Source: Mycobacterium adipatum (GTDB lineage Bacteria > Actinomycetota > Actinomycetes > Mycobacteriales > Mycobacteriaceae). Taken from it: DNA of 64,000 nucleotides. The notes under the pieces are model-generated. The model ran no database searches. It saw only the letters and a list, made by a program, of their open reading frames with translations, and was not told where the DNA came from. The DNA lies in contig NZ_CP015596.1 in the NCBI RefSeq assembly GCF_001644575.1, forward strand, positions 5,084,001-5,148,000, given 5' to 3'. Positions 24,076-30,990 of this stretch are shown piece by piece; the first letter of the stretch is position 1; every line of letters begins with the position of its first letter. Made by a program: the position numbers and the translations under genes.

Positions 24076-24735
24076 GTGGGGGAATCACTGGATCCATCGG
24101 CGCTGACCCGGCTGCGCCGAGCGCTGCGCCCGGACTGGACGCGCACCGTGGCGGCCCGCCGGATCGCCGCCGGGCTGCTGGTGACGCTGGCCGCCGTCGC
24201 CGCGTTCCGACCGGACCCGGCCGGGGTGCGCACCGATGTCGTCATCGCCCTGCGCGACCTCCCGCCGGGGACCGCACTGACGGCCGGCGATGTCGGCGTC
24301 GAAACACGCTTGGCGACAACCGTCCCCGACGGTGCGACTGGCGATATCGCCATCGTGCTCGGCGCCACCCTCTCCGGACCGGCCCGGCGCGGTGAAGTGC
24401 TGACCGATGTCCGGCTGCTCGGTTCGCGGCTGACCGAGGCCAGCGTCGGGCCCGACGCCCGCATCGTGCCGCTGCACCTCGCCGACGAGGCACTGGTCGC
24501 GCTGATCCGGCCCGGCGACATCGTCGATGTGCTGGCGGCAGGGAGCACCGACGCCGGGCCGGACACCGCGCCGGAAGTGGTCGCGACCGAAGCCGTCGTG
24601 ACCCTGGTCTCCGCCGAACCCACGGGCCCAGCAGGTTCCCCCGGCCGGGTGGTGCTGGTGGCGTTGCCCCGTCATGCCGCCAACGCGGTGGCCGGCGCCG
24701 CGCTGACCCGGCAGATCACCGTCACCTTTCACTGA
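24076..24735 (+). CDS. SAF-domain membrane protein (Rv0990c-like, CpaB/RcpC-like)
   Basis: The 219-aa protein has one N-terminal membrane helix (RRIAAGLLVTLAAVAAF, about 29-45) and an extracytoplasmic SAF domain with TDVVIALRDLPPGTALTAGDV and VLGATLSGPARRGEVLTDVRL. This resembles the pilus/flagellar assembly proteins CpaB and FlgA. No pilus genes are nearby, so the role is unclear. It follows ruc by 67 bp, as Rv0990c follows Rv0991c, and is probably in the same HrcA-controlled unit. Start GTG 24076 is the best in-frame candidate. Confidence 0.75.
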   Translation: MGESLDPSALTRLRRALRPDWTRTVAARRIAAGLLVTLAAVAAFRPDPAGVRTDVVIALRDLPPGTALTAGDVGVETRLATTVPDGATGDIAIVLGATLSGPARRGEVLTDVRLLGSRLTEASVGPDARIVPLHLADEALVALIRPGDIVDVLAAGSTDAGPDTAPEVVATEAVVTLVSAEPTGPAGSPGRVVLVALPRHAANAVAGAALTRQITVTFH

Positions 24736-24807
24736 CATCGGCCGGCACCTGCTCGGTTAGTGTTTGCGTGTCGCCTGTACACCATCATCTGCTGGAAGGG
24801 TCCCCGC

Positions 24808-25215
24808 ATGATCAAGGGTTTCAAGGAATTCCTCTTGCGCGGCAACATCGTCGATCTCTCGATCGCCGTGGTCATCGGCACCGCGTTCACCGCGCTCGTC
24901 ACCAAGTTCACCGAGAGCATCATCCAGCCGCTGATCGACCGGATCGGCGCCGGCGGCGAGTCCGACTACGGCATCCTGCGCATCCCGATCGGCGGCGATC
25001 AGACCATCGACCTGAACGTGTTGCTGTCGGCAACGATCAATTTCGTTCTCGTGGCGGCCGTCGTGTACTTCCTGGTCGTGTTGCCGTACAGCAAGTTCCG
25101 CAAGAAGGAAGAGGAGACCGTCGAGGCCGAGGTGGTGCTGCTCACCGAGATTCGCGACCTGCTCGCCAACAGCCCGGGCCGCTCGGCGACCGAACGGGTC
25201 GATCCCGACGCCTGA
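24808..25215 (+). CDS. mscL: large-conductance mechanosensitive channel
   Basis: The 135-aa channel begins at ATG 24808 after GGAAGGG (24794-24800). It has the MscL start [21 protein letters not shown] (first 21 residues split here from the gate region), TM1 with the constriction Leu/Val region [11 protein letters not shown], a periplasmic loop, TM2 [14 protein letters not shown], and a charged C-terminal helix ([11 protein letters not shown]). It opens as a homopentamer under membrane tension to release osmolytes. It is followed by a palindromic terminator and corresponds to Rv0985c. Confidence 0.95.
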
Positions 25216-25222
25216 ACCGTGA

Positions 25223-25262
25223 CACACGAACGCCCGGCTGAGCTCAGCCGGGCGTTCGTGTG
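25223..25262. terminator. palindromic bidirectional terminator
   Basis: A 40-bp perfect palindrome (arms 25223-25242 and 25243-25262) lies between convergent mscL and the first small secreted-protein gene. It can fold as a long hairpin on either strand. No clear T-run follows on either side. Confidence 0.75.
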
Positions 25263-25284: not shown

Positions 25285-25635
25285 TCACCAGTCCCCGATG
25301 GGCGGGCTGAAGATGAACGCGCCGTTGGCGGCCAGGTTGAACGGTGCCGCCTTGGTGCCCGGCACCGCCTTGACGGTGTCCTTGTTGCCCGCGCCCTGGG
25401 CGTGCACGATGCCGGACTCGGCGTTGCGGGTGTCCAGGAACCCGCGGGCCTCGCCGTAATCGGCCACCCGCAGCGCATTGTCGTCGATCAGGATCGCCTG
25501 CCGACTGGTGACGAACGGGGCGGGCGCCGATTCCTCGACCTCCGCCGCAGCGGTGCCAGCACCCAGACCGGCCAACACCGTCGCTCCCGCGAACGAACCG
25601 AACCCCAGCACAGCCAGCTTCATCGATAGCGCCAT
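25285..25635 (-). CDS. small secreted protein, porin-locus family, copy 1
   Basis: The 116-aa product starts at ATG 25635. It has a signal peptide of about 35 residues (MALSMKLAVLGFGSFAG… ending AAA) and a mature part of about 80 residues with EVEESAPAPFVTSRQ, LIDDNALRVADYGEARGFLD, and the fixed C-terminus FIFSPPIGDW. There are no cysteines. I do not recognise a family. Two closely similar copies lie upstream, each next to an MspA-type porin. Copy 1 differs in a central loop (AGNKDTVK versus GVHVDTVK), lacks its own porin, and has a separate promoter region after the terminator at 25738-25768. Export is firm, role unknown. Confidence 0.75.
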   Translation of the reverse strand: MALSMKLAVLGFGSFAGATVLAGLGAGTAAAEVEESAPAPFVTSRQAILIDDNALRVADYGEARGFLDTRNAESGIVHAQGAGNKDTVKAVPGTKAAPFNLAANGAFIFSPPIGDW

Positions 25636-25737
25636 GACCACCACTTCCCACATAAGTTGACCAGCGTTAACCTCTGGTTTCCCAATAGTAGCCTGGGCAA
25701 CACCTGTGAGTTGCGGGTTCGGGGCCGAGCAGGCAAA

Positions 25738-25768
25738 ACGCCCGGCCGGGGAAGCCCCGGCCGGGCGT
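25738..25768 (-). terminator. Rho-independent terminator after small secreted protein copy 2
   Basis: A 14-bp GC stem (25738-25751 / 25755-25768) with a 3-base loop, followed on the minus strand by TTTT. It ends the porin-1 / copy-2 transcript, 25 bp past the gene stop. Confidence 0.85.
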
Positions 25769-25793
25769 CTGCGTCGAGCTCACGAAACGTCGG

Positions 25794-26147
25794 TCACCAG
25801 TCGCCGATCGGCGGGCTGAAGACGAACGCGCCGTTGGACTCCAGGTTGAACGGGGCCGCCGTGGTGCCCGGCACCGCCTTGATGGTGTCCACGTGCACAC
25901 CCTCACCCTGCGCGTGCACGATGCCGGCATCCGCCGACCGGGTGTCCAGGAACCCACGCGCCTGGCCGTAATCGGCCACCCGCAGCGCGTTGTCGTCGAC
26001 CAGCAGAGCCTGCCGGCTGGTCACATAGGGTGCCGGTGCCGATTCCTCGACCTCGGCACTCGCGGTCGCACTACCCAGACCGGCCAACACCGTCGCACCC
26101 GCGAACGTACCGAACCCGAGAACGGCCAACTTCTTCGAATGGGCCAT
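25794..26147 (-). CDS. small secreted protein, porin-locus family, copy 2
   Basis: The 117-aa product (ATG 26147) is near-identical in plan to copies 1 and 3: signal peptide ending in ASA, then EVEESAPAPYVTSRQ, VADYGQARGFLDTR, HAQGEGVHVDTIKAVPG, and FVFSPPIGDW. The gene lies 25 bp downstream of porin 1, so the two are one transcript ended by the hairpin at 25738-25768. The conserved pairing with an outer-membrane porin suggests an envelope function, perhaps in porin folding, assembly or gating, but this is only inference. By eye, about 13 residues differ from copy 3. Confidence 0.78.
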   Translation of the reverse strand: MAHSKKLAVLGFGTFAGATVLAGLGSATASAEVEESAPAPYVTSRQALLVDDNALRVADYGQARGFLDTRSADAGIVHAQGEGVHVDTIKAVPGTTAAPFNLESNGAFVFSPPIGDW

Positions 26148-26172
26148 GAGATTCGCCTTCCTCACCCCGTCG

Positions 26173-26826
26173 TCAGTTCATGTTCCAGGGCTCGCCGTAG
26201 GTGGTGACACTGTCACCCTCCGAGGCGATGAGGCGGGCGTAGGGGCGCAGCAGCACGCCACCGGCAGCACCGGTCACGGTGCCGTGCGCGTTGGAGACCG
26301 CAACCGCACCACTGGCGCCGGCGACGTCAGCGGAGAAGGTCGCAACTTCCTGGATGCCCGGGCCGTTGCCGAGGTCAGCGCTGATCGAGGCGCCGGGGAA
26401 CAGCGGCGGGGTCACGATGGCGGGGATCAGGTCGAAGTCGATCCCGGCCGGCCCCAGAGTTCCGTAGTCCTGGCCGTCGAACGCGATGTTCGGGGTGGTG
26501 TAGCTGAAGTTGATACCCACACCCAGCGACCACGGGAAGCCGACCTGGTAACCCAGCTCCAGCACACCCTCGAAGTCCTCAGCGCCCGGACCCGACACGA
26601 TGTACTTCGCCTTGCCCGAGTGGAACCACTCACGCGTCAGGCGGTTGCGATCCAGCGGAAACACACCATTGAGGAAGGTGTCCCACTGCTGAATGGTCAG
26701 GGTCCGGTCCTTGCCATCCACGAGGCTCAGCTCGTTGTCCAGACCCGCGTTGGAGGTGCCCGTGCTCACGAACAGCGACGCAATGGCCGCGATCATCGCG
26801 ATCAGCACCCGACTGAATACCTTCAT
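26173..26826 (-). CDS. MspA-type porin 1
   Basis: The 217-aa precursor has a 27-residue signal peptide (ending TSNA) and a 190-aa mature porin beginning GLDNELSLVDG, clearly MspA-like (MspA mature is 184 aa). The family forms octameric outer-membrane channels for small hydrophilic nutrients. Conserved blocks include QQWDTFLNGVFPLDRN, WSLGVGINFSYTTPN and the C-terminal SVTTYGEPWNMN. In the constriction loop D90 and D93 remain, but D91 is Gly and G92 is Gln, and the loop is about six residues longer. The locus position matches mspC of M. smegmatis (from memory). It is cotranscribed with small protein copy 2 from the promoter at 26895-26923. Confidence 0.93.
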   Translation of the reverse strand: MKVFSRVLIAMIAAIASLFVSTGTSNAGLDNELSLVDGKDRTLTIQQWDTFLNGVFPLDRNRLTREWFHSGKAKYIVSGPGAEDFEGVLELGYQVGFPWSLGVGINFSYTTPNIAFDGQDYGTLGPAGIDFDLIPAIVTPPLFPGASISADLGNGPGIQEVATFSADVAGASGAVAVSNAHGTVTGAAGGVLLRPYARLIASEGDSVTTYGEPWNMN

Positions 26827-27305
26827 CTTCTCCCTTAGTGGTCCTGCACTCGATGGACTGGTCGATGCGCATTCCGCTCACCGTTGACACGAGGAAATTA
26901 GCGGCGATCCGCCGTTTCAGCAACGCGAGCGGATCCGAATTCGACACCTAGGTGAGGGCCGGGATGAAGTTAGCTGGATACGTTGCGTGCACAGTCCCGG
27001 CCGAACCCGGTCGCCGGCATCGCAGCACGTCATCAGGGATCTACCGGCACGGTGCGCCGCACCACCCGCCCACACGGATCACGGACCGGCCGCAAGCTGG
27101 AGAACAGGTCGGTTAACCATGCGGTTGCGGCGAGGCCCCTCAAACGCCGATTCGGCGCGTCACCGATGGCGCAGATCACACTCGAAAACCCGAGAATTTA
27201 CCGGCCGTTCACGCTATGTGCCCAGCGTGCCCTGCGCCGCGATCGGCGTTTGCCGTCGGCGCGTCCGCAGCGCGCTCGTCGACCACCGGACGACCGGAGA
27301 CAGCA
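26827..27305. other. 479-bp gap upstream of porin 1
   Basis: Apart from the porin 1 promoter and leader (26827-26923), I see no convincing gene, RNA or repeat here. Between 26924 and 27305 frames are short and show no family match. It may hold distant porin control sequence, since MspA-type genes are known for long upstream regions. Confidence 0.4.
26895..26923 (-). promoter_or_regulatory. porin 1 promoter
   Basis: On the minus strand, -35 TTGCTG (26923-26918), a 17-bp spacer, and -10 TAATTT (26900-26895). It is followed by CCTCGTGTCAACG, which is identical after the porin 2 promoter. The transcript leader would be about 60 nt. Confidence 0.65.
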
Positions 27306-27342
27306 AAACACCCGGCCGAGAGGAACCCCGGGCCGGGTGTTT
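27306..27342 (-). terminator. Rho-independent terminator after small secreted protein copy 3
   Basis: A 12-bp stem (27306-27317 / 27331-27342) with a 13-base loop, followed on the minus strand by a T-rich stretch. It ends the porin-2 / copy-3 transcript 23 bp after the gene stop. Confidence 0.8.
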
Positions 27343-27365
27343 GCGTCGAACTCACGAAATGTCGG

Positions 27366-27719
27366 TCACCAGTCGCCGATGGGCGGGCTGAAGACGAACG
27401 CGCCGTTGGCTTCCAGGTTGAACGGTGCCGCCTTGGTGCCCGGCACCGCCTTGACGGTGTCCACGTGCACACCCTCGCCCTGGGCGTGCACGATGCCGGC
27501 CTCGGCATTGCGCGTGTCCAGGAACCCGCGGGCCTCGCCGTAATCGGCCACCCGCAGCGCGTTGTCGTCGATCAGCAGAGCCTGCCGACTGGTCACGTAC
27601 GGGGCTGGCGCCGATTCCTCGACCTCGGCACCTGCGGTCGCACTACCCAGACCGGCCAGCAGCGTCGCACCGGCGAACGAACCGAACCCGAGAACCACAA
27701 ACTTTTTCGATAGGGCCAT
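27366..27719 (-). CDS. small secreted protein, porin-locus family, copy 3
   Basis: The 117-aa product (ATG 27719) has a signal peptide (MALSKKFVVLGFGSFAG… ending AGA) and the same mature body as copies 1 and 2: EVEESAPAPYVTSRQ, LIDDNALRVADYGEARGF, HAQGEGVHVDTVKAVPG, FVFSPPIGDW. It lies 100 bp after porin 2 and is probably on the same transcript. Conserved negative patches (EVEES, DD) and a fixed C-terminal Trp suggest a binding surface. Three intact copies argue against random drift. Function unknown. Confidence 0.78.
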   Translation of the reverse strand: MALSKKFVVLGFGSFAGATLLAGLGSATAGAEVEESAPAPYVTSRQALLIDDNALRVADYGEARGFLDTRNAEAGIVHAQGEGVHVDTVKAVPGTKAAPFNLEANGAFVFSPPIGDW

Positions 27720-27819
27720 GAACCCTTTCCTTCCCTGCTTTTTAGGGCCCTGTCGCCGCCATGCGGCCCGCCTGTCGGAGCACGGACCACACGGCGACGT
27801 CGGGGTCAGGAGTGAACCG

Positions 27820-28473
27820 TCAGTTCATGTTCCAGGGCTCGCCGTAGGTGGTGACGCTGTCACCCTCTGCGGCGATGAGGCGGGCGTAGGGGCGCAGCAG
27901 CACGCCACCGGCAGCACCGGTCACGGTGCCGTGCGCGTTGGAGACCGCAACCGCGCCGCTCTCGCCGGCGACGTCAGCGGAGAAGGTCGCAACTTCCTGG
28001 ATGCCCGGGCCGTTGCCGAGGTCAGCGCTGATCGAGGCGCCGGGGAACAGCGGCGGGGTCACGATGGCGGGGATCAGGTCGAAGTCAACGCCGCCGGGGC
28101 CCACGTAGCCGTAGTCCTGGCCGTCGAACGCGATGTTCGGGGTGGTGTAGCTGAAGTTGATACCCACACCCAGCGACCACGGGAAGCCGACCTGGTAACC
28201 CAGCTCCAGCACACCCTCGAAGTCCTCAGCGCCCGGACCCGACACGATGTACTTCGCCTTGCCCGAGTGGAACCACTCACGCGTCAGGCGGTTGCGATCC
28301 AGCGGAAACACACCATTGAGGAAAGTGTCCCACTGCTGAATGGTCAGGGTCCGGTCCTTGCCATCCACGAGGCTCAGCTCGTTGTCCAGACCCGCGTTGG
28401 AGGTGCCCGTGCTCACGAACAGCGACGCAATGGCCGCGATCATCGCGATCAGCACCCGACTGATTGTCTTCAT
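27820..28473 (-). CDS. MspA-type porin 2
   Basis: The 217-aa precursor is almost the same as porin 1. By eye the differences are in the signal peptide (KTI for KVF), the constriction loop (GYVGPGGVDF for GTLGPAGIDF), and two single residues (GESG for GASG; IAAEG for IASEG). It retains D90/D93 with G91/Q92. The changes cluster in the channel loop, which hints at tuned selectivity. The ATG follows AGGGAGAAC (28474-28482). The transcript likely starts near 28620 and continues through copy 3 of the small protein. Confidence 0.93.
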   Translation of the reverse strand: MKTISRVLIAMIAAIASLFVSTGTSNAGLDNELSLVDGKDRTLTIQQWDTFLNGVFPLDRNRLTREWFHSGKAKYIVSGPGAEDFEGVLELGYQVGFPWSLGVGINFSYTTPNIAFDGQDYGYVGPGGVDFDLIPAIVTPPLFPGASISADLGNGPGIQEVATFSADVAGESGAVAVSNAHGTVTGAAGGVLLRPYARLIAAEGDSVTTYGEPWNMN

Positions 28474-28631
28474 GTTCTCCCTAAGCTGCCGACGGTTGGT
28501 GTGCTGTCAACCGTGTTTGTCGATGCGGATCCCGGCCCTAACCGAGACTTCACACCTTGCAAGACCTCCATGTGATGCGAATTAGAAACTCCACATGTTG
28601 CTCTTACGATTTGCTCATCGTTGACACGAGG

Positions 28632-28660
28632 AACATAACGGTGCTCCATCAACCCGGCAA
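28632..28660 (-). promoter_or_regulatory. porin 2 promoter
   Basis: On the minus strand, -35 TTGCCG (28660-28655), a 17-bp spacer, and -10 TATGTT (28637-28632). The following CCTCGTGTCAACG is identical to porin 1. The leader to the ATG is about 150 nt. Confidence 0.65.
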
Positions 28661-28801
28661 CGCGTAGGTCCCATCGCCAGAACCCGCCCATCACGGGCCC
28701 CCAGGTTTGCTGGGATGGCCATACAGCAGTATTCGCGGTGTCGTGACCAGCGCACCGACGGGGCACGCCGCGGTTTGCCTCACAGGTCGGACAAAAAGCA
28801 G

Positions 28802-28836
28802 TGATCGGCTGGAATCGGGACGATTCCAGCCGATCA
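28802..28836 (-). terminator. Rho-independent terminator of the 52-aa gene
   Basis: Perfect 16-bp stem (28802-28817 / 28821-28836) with a 3-base loop. On the minus strand it is followed by a TTTTT run (28794-28798). It begins 15 bp after the stop of the small gene. Confidence 0.85.
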
Positions 28837-28851
28837 GGGGGAAATTACTGG

Positions 28852-29010
28852 TCAGCCGTGGTGCGGCGGGACGTTGTCCCGGAGCCACCTTTCCCGGTCG
28901 TAACCCTCATCCGGGGCGTTGCCCTCGCGCTCGTCCTTGGTGGTACGCGGCATTTCCTCGCCGAAGATCGCGTTAACTGCATCCTTCGACGGCCGTGTCG
29001 CCCCGGTCAC
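28852..29010 (-). CDS. small hypothetical protein (52 aa)
   Basis: A 52-codon frame starts at GTG 29010, behind AGAGG, and stops at 28852-28854. The product is soluble, acidic and charged, with SKDAVNAIFGEE, TTKDEREG, and the C-terminus RERWLRDNVPPHHG. It has no signal peptide or cysteine. I believe similar short proteins occur beside moaB2 in other mycobacteria, but cannot name a family. Support for a real gene is the ribosome site, the strong terminator just after it, and a Crp-type palindrome 15 bp upstream. Confidence 0.6.
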   Translation of the reverse strand: MTGATRPSKDAVNAIFGEEMPRTTKDEREGNAPDEGYDRERWLRDNVPPHHG

Positions 29011-29024
29011 GAGGCGGTACCTCT

Positions 29025-29040
29025 TGTGACCAACGTCACA
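29025..29040. promoter_or_regulatory. Crp/GlxR-type cAMP-receptor site
   Basis: TGTGACCAACGTCACA matches TGTGA-N6-TCACA exactly, with TGTGAC/GTCACA arms. It lies 15 bp upstream of the 52-aa gene, next to the ribosome site, so bound Crp would more likely repress than activate. Confidence 0.7.
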
Positions 29041-29140
29041 TTCAGGGTGGGATGACCGTTCATCTGCTTGTAACCTGTCGCGCTTGAAAAGGGTGCGTGG
29101 ACCTGCATGATTGCCGCCTGCATACCCATTCTCGGCAGCC

Positions 29141-29635
29141 TCAGATGTCGAGGCTCGACAGCTGCCCGATGACCTGAACGGCCAATGGGTTCAATGTGGC
29201 CATGCCGTCGCGGACCGCGGCGCGTGACCCGGCGATGTTCACCACCAGGGTGCTGCCGGAGATGCCGGCCAGCCCGCGCGATACGCCCGCATCCACGATG
29301 CCCGCGGACAGCCCGGAGGCGCGCAGCGCCTCGGAGATGCCCAGCAGCTCGCGGTCGAGCAGGTCGACGGTCGCTTCCGGGGTCACATCGCGAGGGCTCA
29401 CGCCGGTGCCGCCGACCGAGATCACCAGATCGACACCACCGATGACCGCGGTGTTGAGTGCATTACGGATCTCCACCTCGTCGGCGGACACCACCACCAC
29501 CCCGTCCACCAGGAAACCGCTCTCACCGAGCAACTCGGTGACCAACGGTCCGCTGTGATCCTCTTCGCCGTGTGCCGTCCGGTCGTCGACGACGACGACG
29601 AGCGCCCGCCCGACCAATTCCCCAGGTTGTTCCAT
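29141..29635 (-). CDS. moaB2: molybdopterin-binding MoaB/Mog-family protein
   Basis: The 164-aa MoCF-domain protein (ATG 29635) has the family core SVGGTGVSPRDVTPEAT and the C-terminal GSTLVVNIAGSRAAVRDGM. MoaB/Mog proteins bind molybdopterin and adenylylate it before molybdenum insertion. It corresponds to Rv0984, which in M. tuberculosis sits directly after pepD. The 62-bp gap from pepD allows cotranscription with the mprAB-pepD set. Confidence 0.9.
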   Translation of the reverse strand: MEQPGELVGRALVVVVDDRTAHGEEDHSGPLVTELLGESGFLVDGVVVVSADEVEIRNALNTAVIGGVDLVISVGGTGVSPRDVTPEATVDLLDRELLGISEALRASGLSAGIVDAGVSRGLAGISGSTLVVNIAGSRAAVRDGMATLNPLAVQVIGQLSSLDI

Positions 29636-29697
29636 GCCTGTCACCGTATATCCGGCCGACGACAGTGACCCAGGCAAGGTCGCCTCCACTCCCCGGG

Positions 29698-30990
29698 TCA
29701 CTGCTGCGCCTTTCCGAGCGTCACGTCCAGGGTCTCGGGTCCGCCGGACCCTTGGTAGGTCAAGGTCACCTTGGTGCCCGGCGCCTTCGAGCGCACCGCC
29801 GCCACGAGAGCGTCGGCGCTGTTGATTACGCGTCCGTCCACCTTGGTCACCACCACACCGCTGGGCAGTCCGGCCGCCGCCGCCGCGCCACCCTCGGTGA
29901 CCTCGACGATCTTCGCGCCGTCCACCGATGCGTCGTTGCCCACCTGCACCCCGAGCGAGGCGTGCGATGCGGTGCCGTTCTGCACCAGTTCGTCGGCGAT
30001 CCGTTTGGCCTGGTCCACCGGGATGGCGAACCCGAGGCCGATCGAACCGCTCTGGGATTCCGCGGAAGCACCGCCCAGGGTGGCGATCGCGGAGTTCACG
30101 CCGACCAACTCACCGTTCATATTGACCAGCGCGCCACCGGAGTTGCCTGGGTTGATCGCGGCGTCGGTCTGGATGGCATCCAGCACGGTGTTCTGGTCGC
30201 GGCTGTTCCCGCCGGCGGCCACCGGACGGTTCAGTGCACTGACGATGCCGACGGTCACGGTGCCCTCCAGGCCCAGCGGGGAGCCGATCGCGACGACGTC
30301 CTGGCCGACCCGCAAGTCCCCGGAAGATCCGAGGGCGATCGGTGTCAGACCCGACACCCCCTCGGCACGGACCACCGCGATATCGCTGCTGGGATCGGTT
30401 CCGACCACCGTGAACGGCGCGGTCCGGCCGTCGGCGAAGGTGACCTTGGTCTGCGGACGCCCGCCGGGCGCACCCTCGGTGGCGACGACGTGGTTGTTGG
30501 TGAGGATCAGACCGTCGGTGGACAGGATGATGCCCGATCCCTCTTCGGAGGCCCGGCCGAGATTCGTCTCGAGCTTGACGACGCTGGGCACAACCTTGGC
30601 CGCGACCTGTTCCACGGAACCCACCGGCAGGCTGGCCGCCGGAACACCGGGTGTGGCGCCGCCGGCGCTGGAGAAGCTGGTGGACGGCCGGTCGGGCTGA
30701 GCCAGCACAGCCACCCCGCCACCGATACCCGCGGAGACGACTGCGATCGCGGCGGCACCGGCCACCAAAGCGCCTGCGCGCGAACGTTTCTGGGGCCGAA
30801 CCTGAGTGGCTCCGGTGGGGCGGTACGGATCGTACTGCGGCCGCGGCTGCTGGCCCTGCTGGGCGTAGCGCCAGTCATAGGGTTGCTGGTAGCCCTGTTG
30901 ATACGTGCTGCGCTGGGTGGAATAGCTGGTGGGATTGCTCTCATAGCCGGGCTGGGCCGGAGGCGGCGTGTACCTCGGGTCGTTCGTCAT
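29698..30990 (-). CDS. pepD: HtrA-like membrane serine protease PepD
   Basis: The 430-aa protein has a cytosolic Pro/Gln/Tyr-rich N-terminus (about 1-95), one membrane helix (about 102-122), a trypsin-fold protease domain, and a C-terminal PDZ domain. The catalytic triad is visible as His in LTNNHVVATEG, Asp in PSSDIAVVRAEG, and Ser in NPGNSGGALV. PepD handles misfolded envelope proteins and is part of the MprAB-SigE stress circuit in M. tuberculosis (Rv0983). Upstream of the gene a direct repeat of GAGAAT (31070-31088) might be an MprA-type box. Start ATG 30990. Confidence 0.93.
   Translation of the reverse strand: MTNDPRYTPPPAQPGYESNPTSYSTQRSTYQQGYQQPYDWRYAQQGQQPRPQYDPYRPTGATQVRPQKRSRAGALVAGAAAIAVVSAGIGGGVAVLAQPDRPSTSFSSAGGATPGVPAASLPVGSVEQVAAKVVPSVVKLETNLGRASEEGSGIILSTDGLILTNNHVVATEGAPGGRPQTKVTFADGRTAPFTVVGTDPSSDIAVVRAEGVSGLTPIALGSSGDLRVGQDVVAIGSPLGLEGTVTVGIVSALNRPVAAGGNSRDQNTVLDAIQTDAAINPGNSGGALVNMNGELVGVNSAIATLGGASAESQSGSIGLGFAIPVDQAKRIADELVQNGTASHASLGVQVGNDASVDGAKIVEVTEGGAAAAAGLPSGVVVTKVDGRVINSADALVAAVRSKAPGTKVTLTYQGSGGPETLDVTLGKAQQ

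Follow-up and report, generated by a model that had tools for sequence, protein, structure and literature searches.

A family of small exported proteins found with one MspA-type porin subtype in mycobacteria: a candidate porin partner

In Mycobacterium adipatum, two tandem MspA-type porin genes are each followed, on the same strand, by a gene for a small exported protein, and the question is what such a protein does beside a porin. The locus was studied in a window of 64,000 nucleotides (positions 5,084,001 to 5,148,000 of the forward strand of contig NZ_CP015596.1, assembly GCF_001644575.1), whose own numbering is used below. The small protein is here called S (S1, S2 and S3 in the window) and the window porins P1 and P2. 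The minus-strand gene order at 25285-28473 is P2-S1-P1-S2-S3, with a molybdopterin-binding protein gene, which we take to be moaB2, on the P2 side and a convergent mscL after S3. An initial annotation had seen here a duplicated unit of porin plus small protein, the latter perhaps serving porin folding, assembly or gating. The duplicated unit stands (P2-S1 and P1-S2, with S3 behind). Porin genes are followed by S in many environmental mycobacteria, and the co-occurrence described below suggests that S works together with one porin subtype, those with A88 in the constriction loop.

Distribution of S and of the porin subtypes

Both porin genes are MspA by NF053716 and PF09203, as had been annotated. 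P1 aligns over its full length with MspA (PDB 1uun; 338 bits, residues 28-217 on 1-184), P2 being covered through its near identity to P1. Compared with 1uun, the mature porins are six residues longer, the locus adds S genes, and the constriction loop carries A88 and P108, with G at position 91 instead of D91 (MspA numbering). The constriction of MspA itself corresponds to D90/D91, according to the available part of PMC3377714.

The S proteins had been described as three near-identical exported proteins. They do look exported and are 116-117 residues long, but S2 and S3 are only 89% and 87% identical to S1 (37 of 351 nucleotides differ between S1 and S2). Each bears a Sec-type signal in which AxA precedes the likely cut, leaving 85-86 mature residues as read from the alignment, and the basic n-region, hydrophobic core and AxA-type site are general in the family (A29 in 99% and A31 in 100% of 91 alignment rows). 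Strongly conserved mature positions among these 91 relatives include P38, P40, V42, S44, R45, Q46, A47, R56, G61, A63, R64, G65, G81, D87, A91, G94, F100 and G115. The absence of Cys and the shared C-terminus, both remarked on in the annotation, are true of the three window copies. As also supposed there, S belongs to no known family: membership of one was rejected for lack of any credible match in Pfam, NCBIfam, PHROGs or the PDB. No description of S was found in the open full-text literature, a collection without most subscription papers. Many long chance frames overlap in the window, and the S genes could in principle be spurious small open reading frames or duplication debris. This is already refuted in practice by purifying selection (median dN/dS of 0.15 over 91 pairs of 14 S genes), by the persistence of the signal peptide and of the conserved ends across 41-92% identity, and by the 148 homologues found with E up to 0.001.

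The distribution of S was established in a sample of 396 genomes of the genus, 212 of which have a strong MspA porin. S was detected in 63 of the 396 with a first profile (A1) and in 71 with a broader one (A2); named species with relatives include M. aurum, M. bacteremicum, M. frederiksbergense and M. iranicum. A family-level search (251 genomes, some of the same genus) gave four matches, three in the same genus and a borderline one in another (genome G527, E = 5.7e-4). The M. adipatum genome has five S genes, three in the window and two elsewhere, neither of the latter near any of its three PF09203 genes. The third MspA-family gene of this genome (G000:C1:2287758-2288288) has the top PF09203 score and no S beside it. 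A general co-occurrence of S with MspA-type porins had been proposed as a check. A strong MspA porin is indeed present in 62 of the 71 S genomes, but 150 of the 212 porin genomes lack S, so that S as a general MspA factor is ruled out.

The porins that accompany S share a particular constriction loop. Porins with A88...P108 are here called A88 type, and those with L88...N108, as in MspA, L88 type. After TTP, the loop reads N-I/V-A in the porin of every S-bearing locus with a readable loop and N-I/V-L in every S-less stretch among those picked mainly by best porin match (two sets of stretches were hand-picked, mostly among the top porin matches and with five weak-S stretches added, and a third mainly from A88-pattern matches). 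When 89 A88-type and 57 L88-type fetched porins were sorted by residue 88 alone, position 108 split the types completely (TPP in 88 of 88 readable A88 loops, TPN in 57 of 57 L88 loops), positions 91 and 105 and an insertion after 97 nearly completely, and positions 13, 53 and 141 less cleanly. Five of these eight positions, retained by a cut of our own, fall in 88-108, position 88 being the sorting criterion itself. Position 91 is G in 67 of the 89 A88-type porins; of the 57 L88-type ones, 34 have D there and 22 have Q. The mean loop length is 26.8 residues in the A88 type versus 24.5 in the L88 type.

Genus-wide, the A88 pattern was searched as degenerate DNA for YTTPN[I/V/M]A. The L88 type was read only in fetched porins, its counterpart elsewhere being a porin present with the A88 pattern absent. 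The pattern was found in 63 of the 396 genomes, and one match (G086) was noted with the reversed control. Kinship ignored, S and the A88 loop occur together in 60 genomes, the loop only in 3, S only in 11 and neither in 322: 60 of the 63 A88-loop genomes have S and 322 of the 333 non-A88 genomes do not. Among the 212 genomes with a strong MspA porin, the same counts are 59, 3, 3 and 147. The exceptions are mostly weak matches or incomplete or fragmented assemblies. Six of the 11 genomes with S only have matches with E >1e-5 (G020, G118, G148, G299, G336, G374), two are 87-88% complete (G051, G355), two are in about 50 and about 370 contigs (G253 and G385) and one has a short match (G161). Regarding the genomes with the loop only, G368 is 81% complete and its locus stretch was left out of the fetched set, the porin of G369 runs to the contig end, and in G384 an S-like gene scoring 16 bits separates the porin from mscL.

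Linkage and kinship

Genomic linkage was read for 113 S genes, from 100 fetched stretches and the window; 31 A1-profile matches lie outside this set, four of them strong (G307:C234, G028:C82, G027:C13, G385:C146). A porin is found in the fetched flank of 39 of the 113 genes (within 2.5 kb for 36), always upstream, on the same strand and at one syntenic locus. Among these, 35 lie between the porin and a SAF-domain gene (before mscL or, in another group, between mscL and SAF) and four beyond SAF; in G174 and G394, S is just past SAF and two porins lie some kilobases upstream. The S of stretch L107 (G139), excluded from the set for want of a start, is likewise downstream of a porin. Its match has one in-frame stop, and a frame of 353 residues, presumably transposase-like, separates it from the porin.

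More distant relatives extend the picture. In five genomes that belong to a further clade, the interval from porin to mscL holds S-like genes scoring 29-33 bits. In 25 A88-type stretches fetched later and searched with the broader profile, two strong S (135-146 bits), 16 matches at 24-43 bits and three at 12-16 bits were found, and four had none. S or S-like matches of at least 24 bits are present in 18 of these 25 stretches versus 0 of 35 L88-type stretches, 30 of which do show porin, mscL and SAF. Three of the four genomes without a match there carry S elsewhere (G002, G279, G306), the fourth being G369. The weak matches are exported-looking small proteins, some with Cys and several with an SRQ motif, and may form a wider superfamily. 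S-like exported proteins of other types, several with Cys, occupy the same locus in L203, L204, L207-L212, L218 and L219. A metagenome protein of 111 residues (P0057) aligns with half of S, and its precomputed domain label is MscL; it may be a frame artefact at the border of S and mscL.

Two scenarios may explain this joint distribution. Either S acts with the A88-type porin, or, as the main rival holds, it has an envelope or secreted role independent of the porin and lies beside it by inheritance, subtype and S marking the same lineages or moving as a block. The rival was examined on two phylogenies, a locus tree of moaB2, mscL and SAF (80 loci) and an rpoB tree (53 genomes, 3486 nucleotides). 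The state combining the A88 loop and S is scattered in both and neither state is monophyletic, which counts against the rival. Five parsimony changes of porin type are required on the rpoB tree, and S agrees with porin type at 51 of its 53 tips (the exceptions are G384 and G148, the latter with a borderline match). A Pagel-type comparison of dependent and independent models gives a likelihood ratio of 37.6, or 32.7 if G148 is counted as bearing S, on chosen tips with one well-supported switch. That switch concerns G277 and G169, which have an A88 porin plus S at two places and form a sister group to the S-less G080 and G038 (99.9/100) within a group of 13 genomes that is otherwise L88-type and S-less (89.7/97). 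An L88 group made up of G330, G251, G148 and G323 (99.5/97) sits among A88 genomes, but its placement there depends on weak forks.

G277 bears one S at the porin locus, an unlinked one beside a gene that we take to be trigger-factor-like, and a further match that is weak. In the S tree, the unlinked copy joins the copies of G169, G303 and G310 (100/99); it may have been gained or kept, the corresponding site of G080 lying outside the fetched stretches. For mscL, G277 is closer to G080 (87.5% identity) than to G303 (75%). For S, there is alignment with G303, in two pieces of 81% and 89%, and none with the G080 stretch. Nevertheless, the porin of G277 aligns with both G303 (83%) and G080 (82-86% outside the loop), which counts against a clean transfer. 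The unlinked S of L093 (5998-6387) is directly upstream, on the same strand, of a gene presumably trigger-factor-like.

Adjacency alone can carry porin type and S in one transfer. Yet S, linked or not, occurs in only 3 of the 150 porin genomes without the A88 pattern, each with E >1e-5, and this near absence speaks against adjacency as the whole cause. The unlinked or separately placed S of G277 and G169 and the clustering of the discriminating porin sites in one loop also fit poorly with a porin-independent role. Several observations weigh in the opposite direction. The annotation had held that a porin role would fall if S were found widely without porins, and 74 of the 113 S genes, which have no porin in the fetched flank, come close to this; S is moreover missing from most porin genomes. 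The porin-linked copies all belong to one syntenic locus, most close relatives are alike in both states, only the switch of G277 and G169 is well supported and the remaining changes rest on weak deep forks, while inheritance with block recombination at one locus can yield co-segregation. The tips of the rpoB tree were selected by us, and the L88-type stretches were drawn from the best-scoring porin matches. Finally, D91 is also missing in 22 of the 57 L88-type porins, so its loss is not special to the A88 type, and the A88 loops are more acidic (a mean of 3.7 versus 2.3 acidic residues) while S is itself acidic, which disfavours simple charge pairing. The single well-supported switch and the D91 and acidity counts lower the odds of a porin partner, and of the plug considered below, and raise those of a porin-independent S, which is regarded as a serious possibility though not a probable one. 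That S and the A88 porins work jointly, probably close to or at the constriction loop, would still be the simplest account of the joint pattern, and S is tentatively put forward, at just under an even chance, as a dedicated periplasmic partner of the A88...P108 subfamily of MspA-type porins.

Possible modes of action

As a partner, S would be made with the porin from one transcript (for P1-S2), exported by a Sec-type signal and reach the periplasm as about 86 mature residues without a confident fold, where it would meet the 88-108 loop through VTSRQA, near its mature start, and its GPPIGDW-like end. AlphaFold2 with 91 sequences gave no confident compact fold of the kind expected of a folded chaperone (mean pLDDT 55.5, pTM 0.15); the fold may be induced by a partner. 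Help in porin assembly or stability seems somewhat likelier than a role at the constriction as a removable plug or gate. In the latter case, S would be a disordered, detachable periplasmic peptide whose aromatic C-terminus enters the constriction from the periplasmic side, and the loop would have been reshaped to receive it (A88, no D91, the insertion after 97 and P108). This plug reading is unlikely.

Alternatively, the pairing could be only regulatory: S would be co-made with the porin and act elsewhere, for example as C-terminal ligand of the trypsin-like protein with a PDZ domain encoded 1.2 kb from P2 (29698-30990), presumably an HtrA-like protease. The short P1-S2 gap and the stem-loops after each S agree with this idea, and an aromatic C-terminus would be appropriate for a PDZ ligand: 104 of 113 S proteins end in W or F versus 19 of 869 long frames, a rough yardstick as these frames are mostly non-genes. 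Nevertheless, several S-like types lack a terminal W or F and the tie to the porin loop is left unexplained, which makes a purely regulatory pairing quite improbable.

The available part of PMC12632848 describes the transport and assembly of mycomembrane proteins as a major gap, and the delivery and control of porins in the mycobacterial outer membrane as an open question. The same source offers a comparison, the corynebacterial PorH/PorA/ProtX, small proteins that like S are tied to outer-membrane transport; as described there, however, these are alpha-helical pore proteins without identifiable Sec signals, whereas S has a Sec-type signal and lies beside an MspA-type porin. A further comparison is with small periplasmic accessory proteins such as Rv0455c, which the accessible text of PMC9042941 presents as a mycobacterial periplasmic protein required for an envelope transport process. 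A family that appears and disappears with one constriction-marked porin subtype is a concrete candidate for a porin partner. Since MspA (1uun) is of the other loop type, S may not have been encountered in work on MspA. Were the plug to exist, mycobacterial outer-membrane permeability would be gated by a swappable peptide family unseen in that work.

Organization and history of the locus

Table 1. Features of the porin locus and its flanks
Feature	Position	Strand	Basis
P2, MspA-type porin, 217 aa (190 aa from GLDNE)	27820..28473	-	NF053716 373.9 bits (cut-off 280), PF09203 130.5 bits (cut-off 22.9); loop NIAFDGQDYGYVGPGGVDFDLIPAIVTPP
P1, MspA-type porin, 217 aa	26173..26826	-	NF053716 376.5 bits, PF09203 130.9 bits (same cut-offs); aligned to 1uun; loop NIAFDGQDYGTLGPAGIDFDLIPAIVTPP
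S1, exported small protein, 117 aa	27366..27719	-	open reading frame list and homologue alignment
S2, exported small protein, 117 aa, 25 nt past P1 stop codon	25794..26147	-	open reading frame list and homologue alignment
S3, exported small protein, 116 aa	25285..25635	-	homologue alignment; in the tree, groups with last S of two other genomes
18-bp stem-loop inside the 100-nt P2-S1 gap (27720-27819)	27754..27799	-	folding; recurs in six other genomes
Stem-loop 3' of S1, terminator-like	27303..27344	-	folding, -30.2 kcal/mol, 66 nt, z -2.7; absent from T-run terminator calls
Stem-loop 3' of S2	25733..25772	-	folding, -41.7 kcal/mol, 64 nt, z -5.0
Stem-loop between convergent S3 and mscL	25223..25262	no strand	folding, -42 kcal/mol, 65 nt, z -9.1
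52-nt repeat copy upstream of P1	26876..26927	-	repeat D7, 75% identity
Second copy of repeat D7, upstream of P2	28613..28664	-	repeat search
mscL, convergent neighbour, locus boundary	24805..25215	+	PF01741
SAF-domain protein, conserved locus flank	24085..24735	+	PF08666
Molybdopterin-binding protein, conserved flank on the other side	29141..29701	-	PF00994; synteny

The starts of S2 and S3 were set at an inner ATG by the homologue alignment and not at the first listed starts. The hairpins had been thought the same in each unit; strong stem-loops do follow all three S genes, but the P2-S1 gap has an extra stem and the P1-S2 gap none. Since the latter gap is only 25 nt long and stem-free and a strong stem-loop follows each S, P1-S2 is very probably a single transcript. 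P2-S1 may be partly uncoupled, and its stem may affect the transcript between the two genes, by thinning or by stabilising it; in an alignment of seven sequences, two-sided changes affect 2 of its 28 pairs, and several pairs are broken in one or two sequences. S3 starts 158 nt past S2, behind the S2 stem-loop. For the porin and S genes, scans for sigma-70 promoters and T-run terminators were uninformative. Known RNA elements were rejected among the locus genes, all five Rfam matches being far below the gathering score.

Two porins each followed by S are found in four genomes (that of the window, G120, G197 and G388). Among 12 porins, mature paired porins show 97-98% nucleotide identity within a genome versus 86-96% between genomes. 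In the S tree, which left out 22 of the 113 S genes, chiefly the most divergent, the S genes that follow the two porins of a genome group with each other in G197 and G120; this is not general, as in the window S1 joins the G120 pair but S2 stays apart from it. The S3-type copies, present in the window, G120 and G197, form a separate group. P1 and P2 differ at 22 of 651 nucleotides and are nearly identical save around the constriction loop (TLGPA in P1 versus YVGPG in P2); the difference between TLGPA and Y.GPG/Y.GPA recurs in G197 and G388 and not in G120. The higher identity of porins within genomes, the mixed S pairing and the recurring loop split would fit an old duplication whose copies gene conversion has kept similar, least so at the constriction loop. 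The split, seen in similar form in G197 and G388, may also indicate a division of labour in pore selectivity.

Tandem porins are already known from this locus, and it is the S gene family that is new to the searched literature. According to the available parts of PMC3989263 and PMC8317493, M. chelonae has three clustered Msp porins and M. abscessus two, mmpA and mmpB, tandem and nearly identical as in the window; no small exported gene is mentioned in those parts, be it between the porins or behind them, whereas the window has one after each. A further likeness to the window locus is the position of the primer MscL-Fw, just outside the M. abscessus porin pair in the text available. The neighbourhood of porM1 of M. 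fortuitum, a molybdopterin gene and mscL, is the same as that of the window, with no small gene named in the accessible part of PMC2651896. Tandem porins without S were found in 15 of 20 stretches picked mainly from the best porin matches. In the window, a frame of 84 residues without family lies at 28801-29055, between the P2 upstream region and moaB2, and covers a terminator-like stem of 16 pairs (28802-28836).

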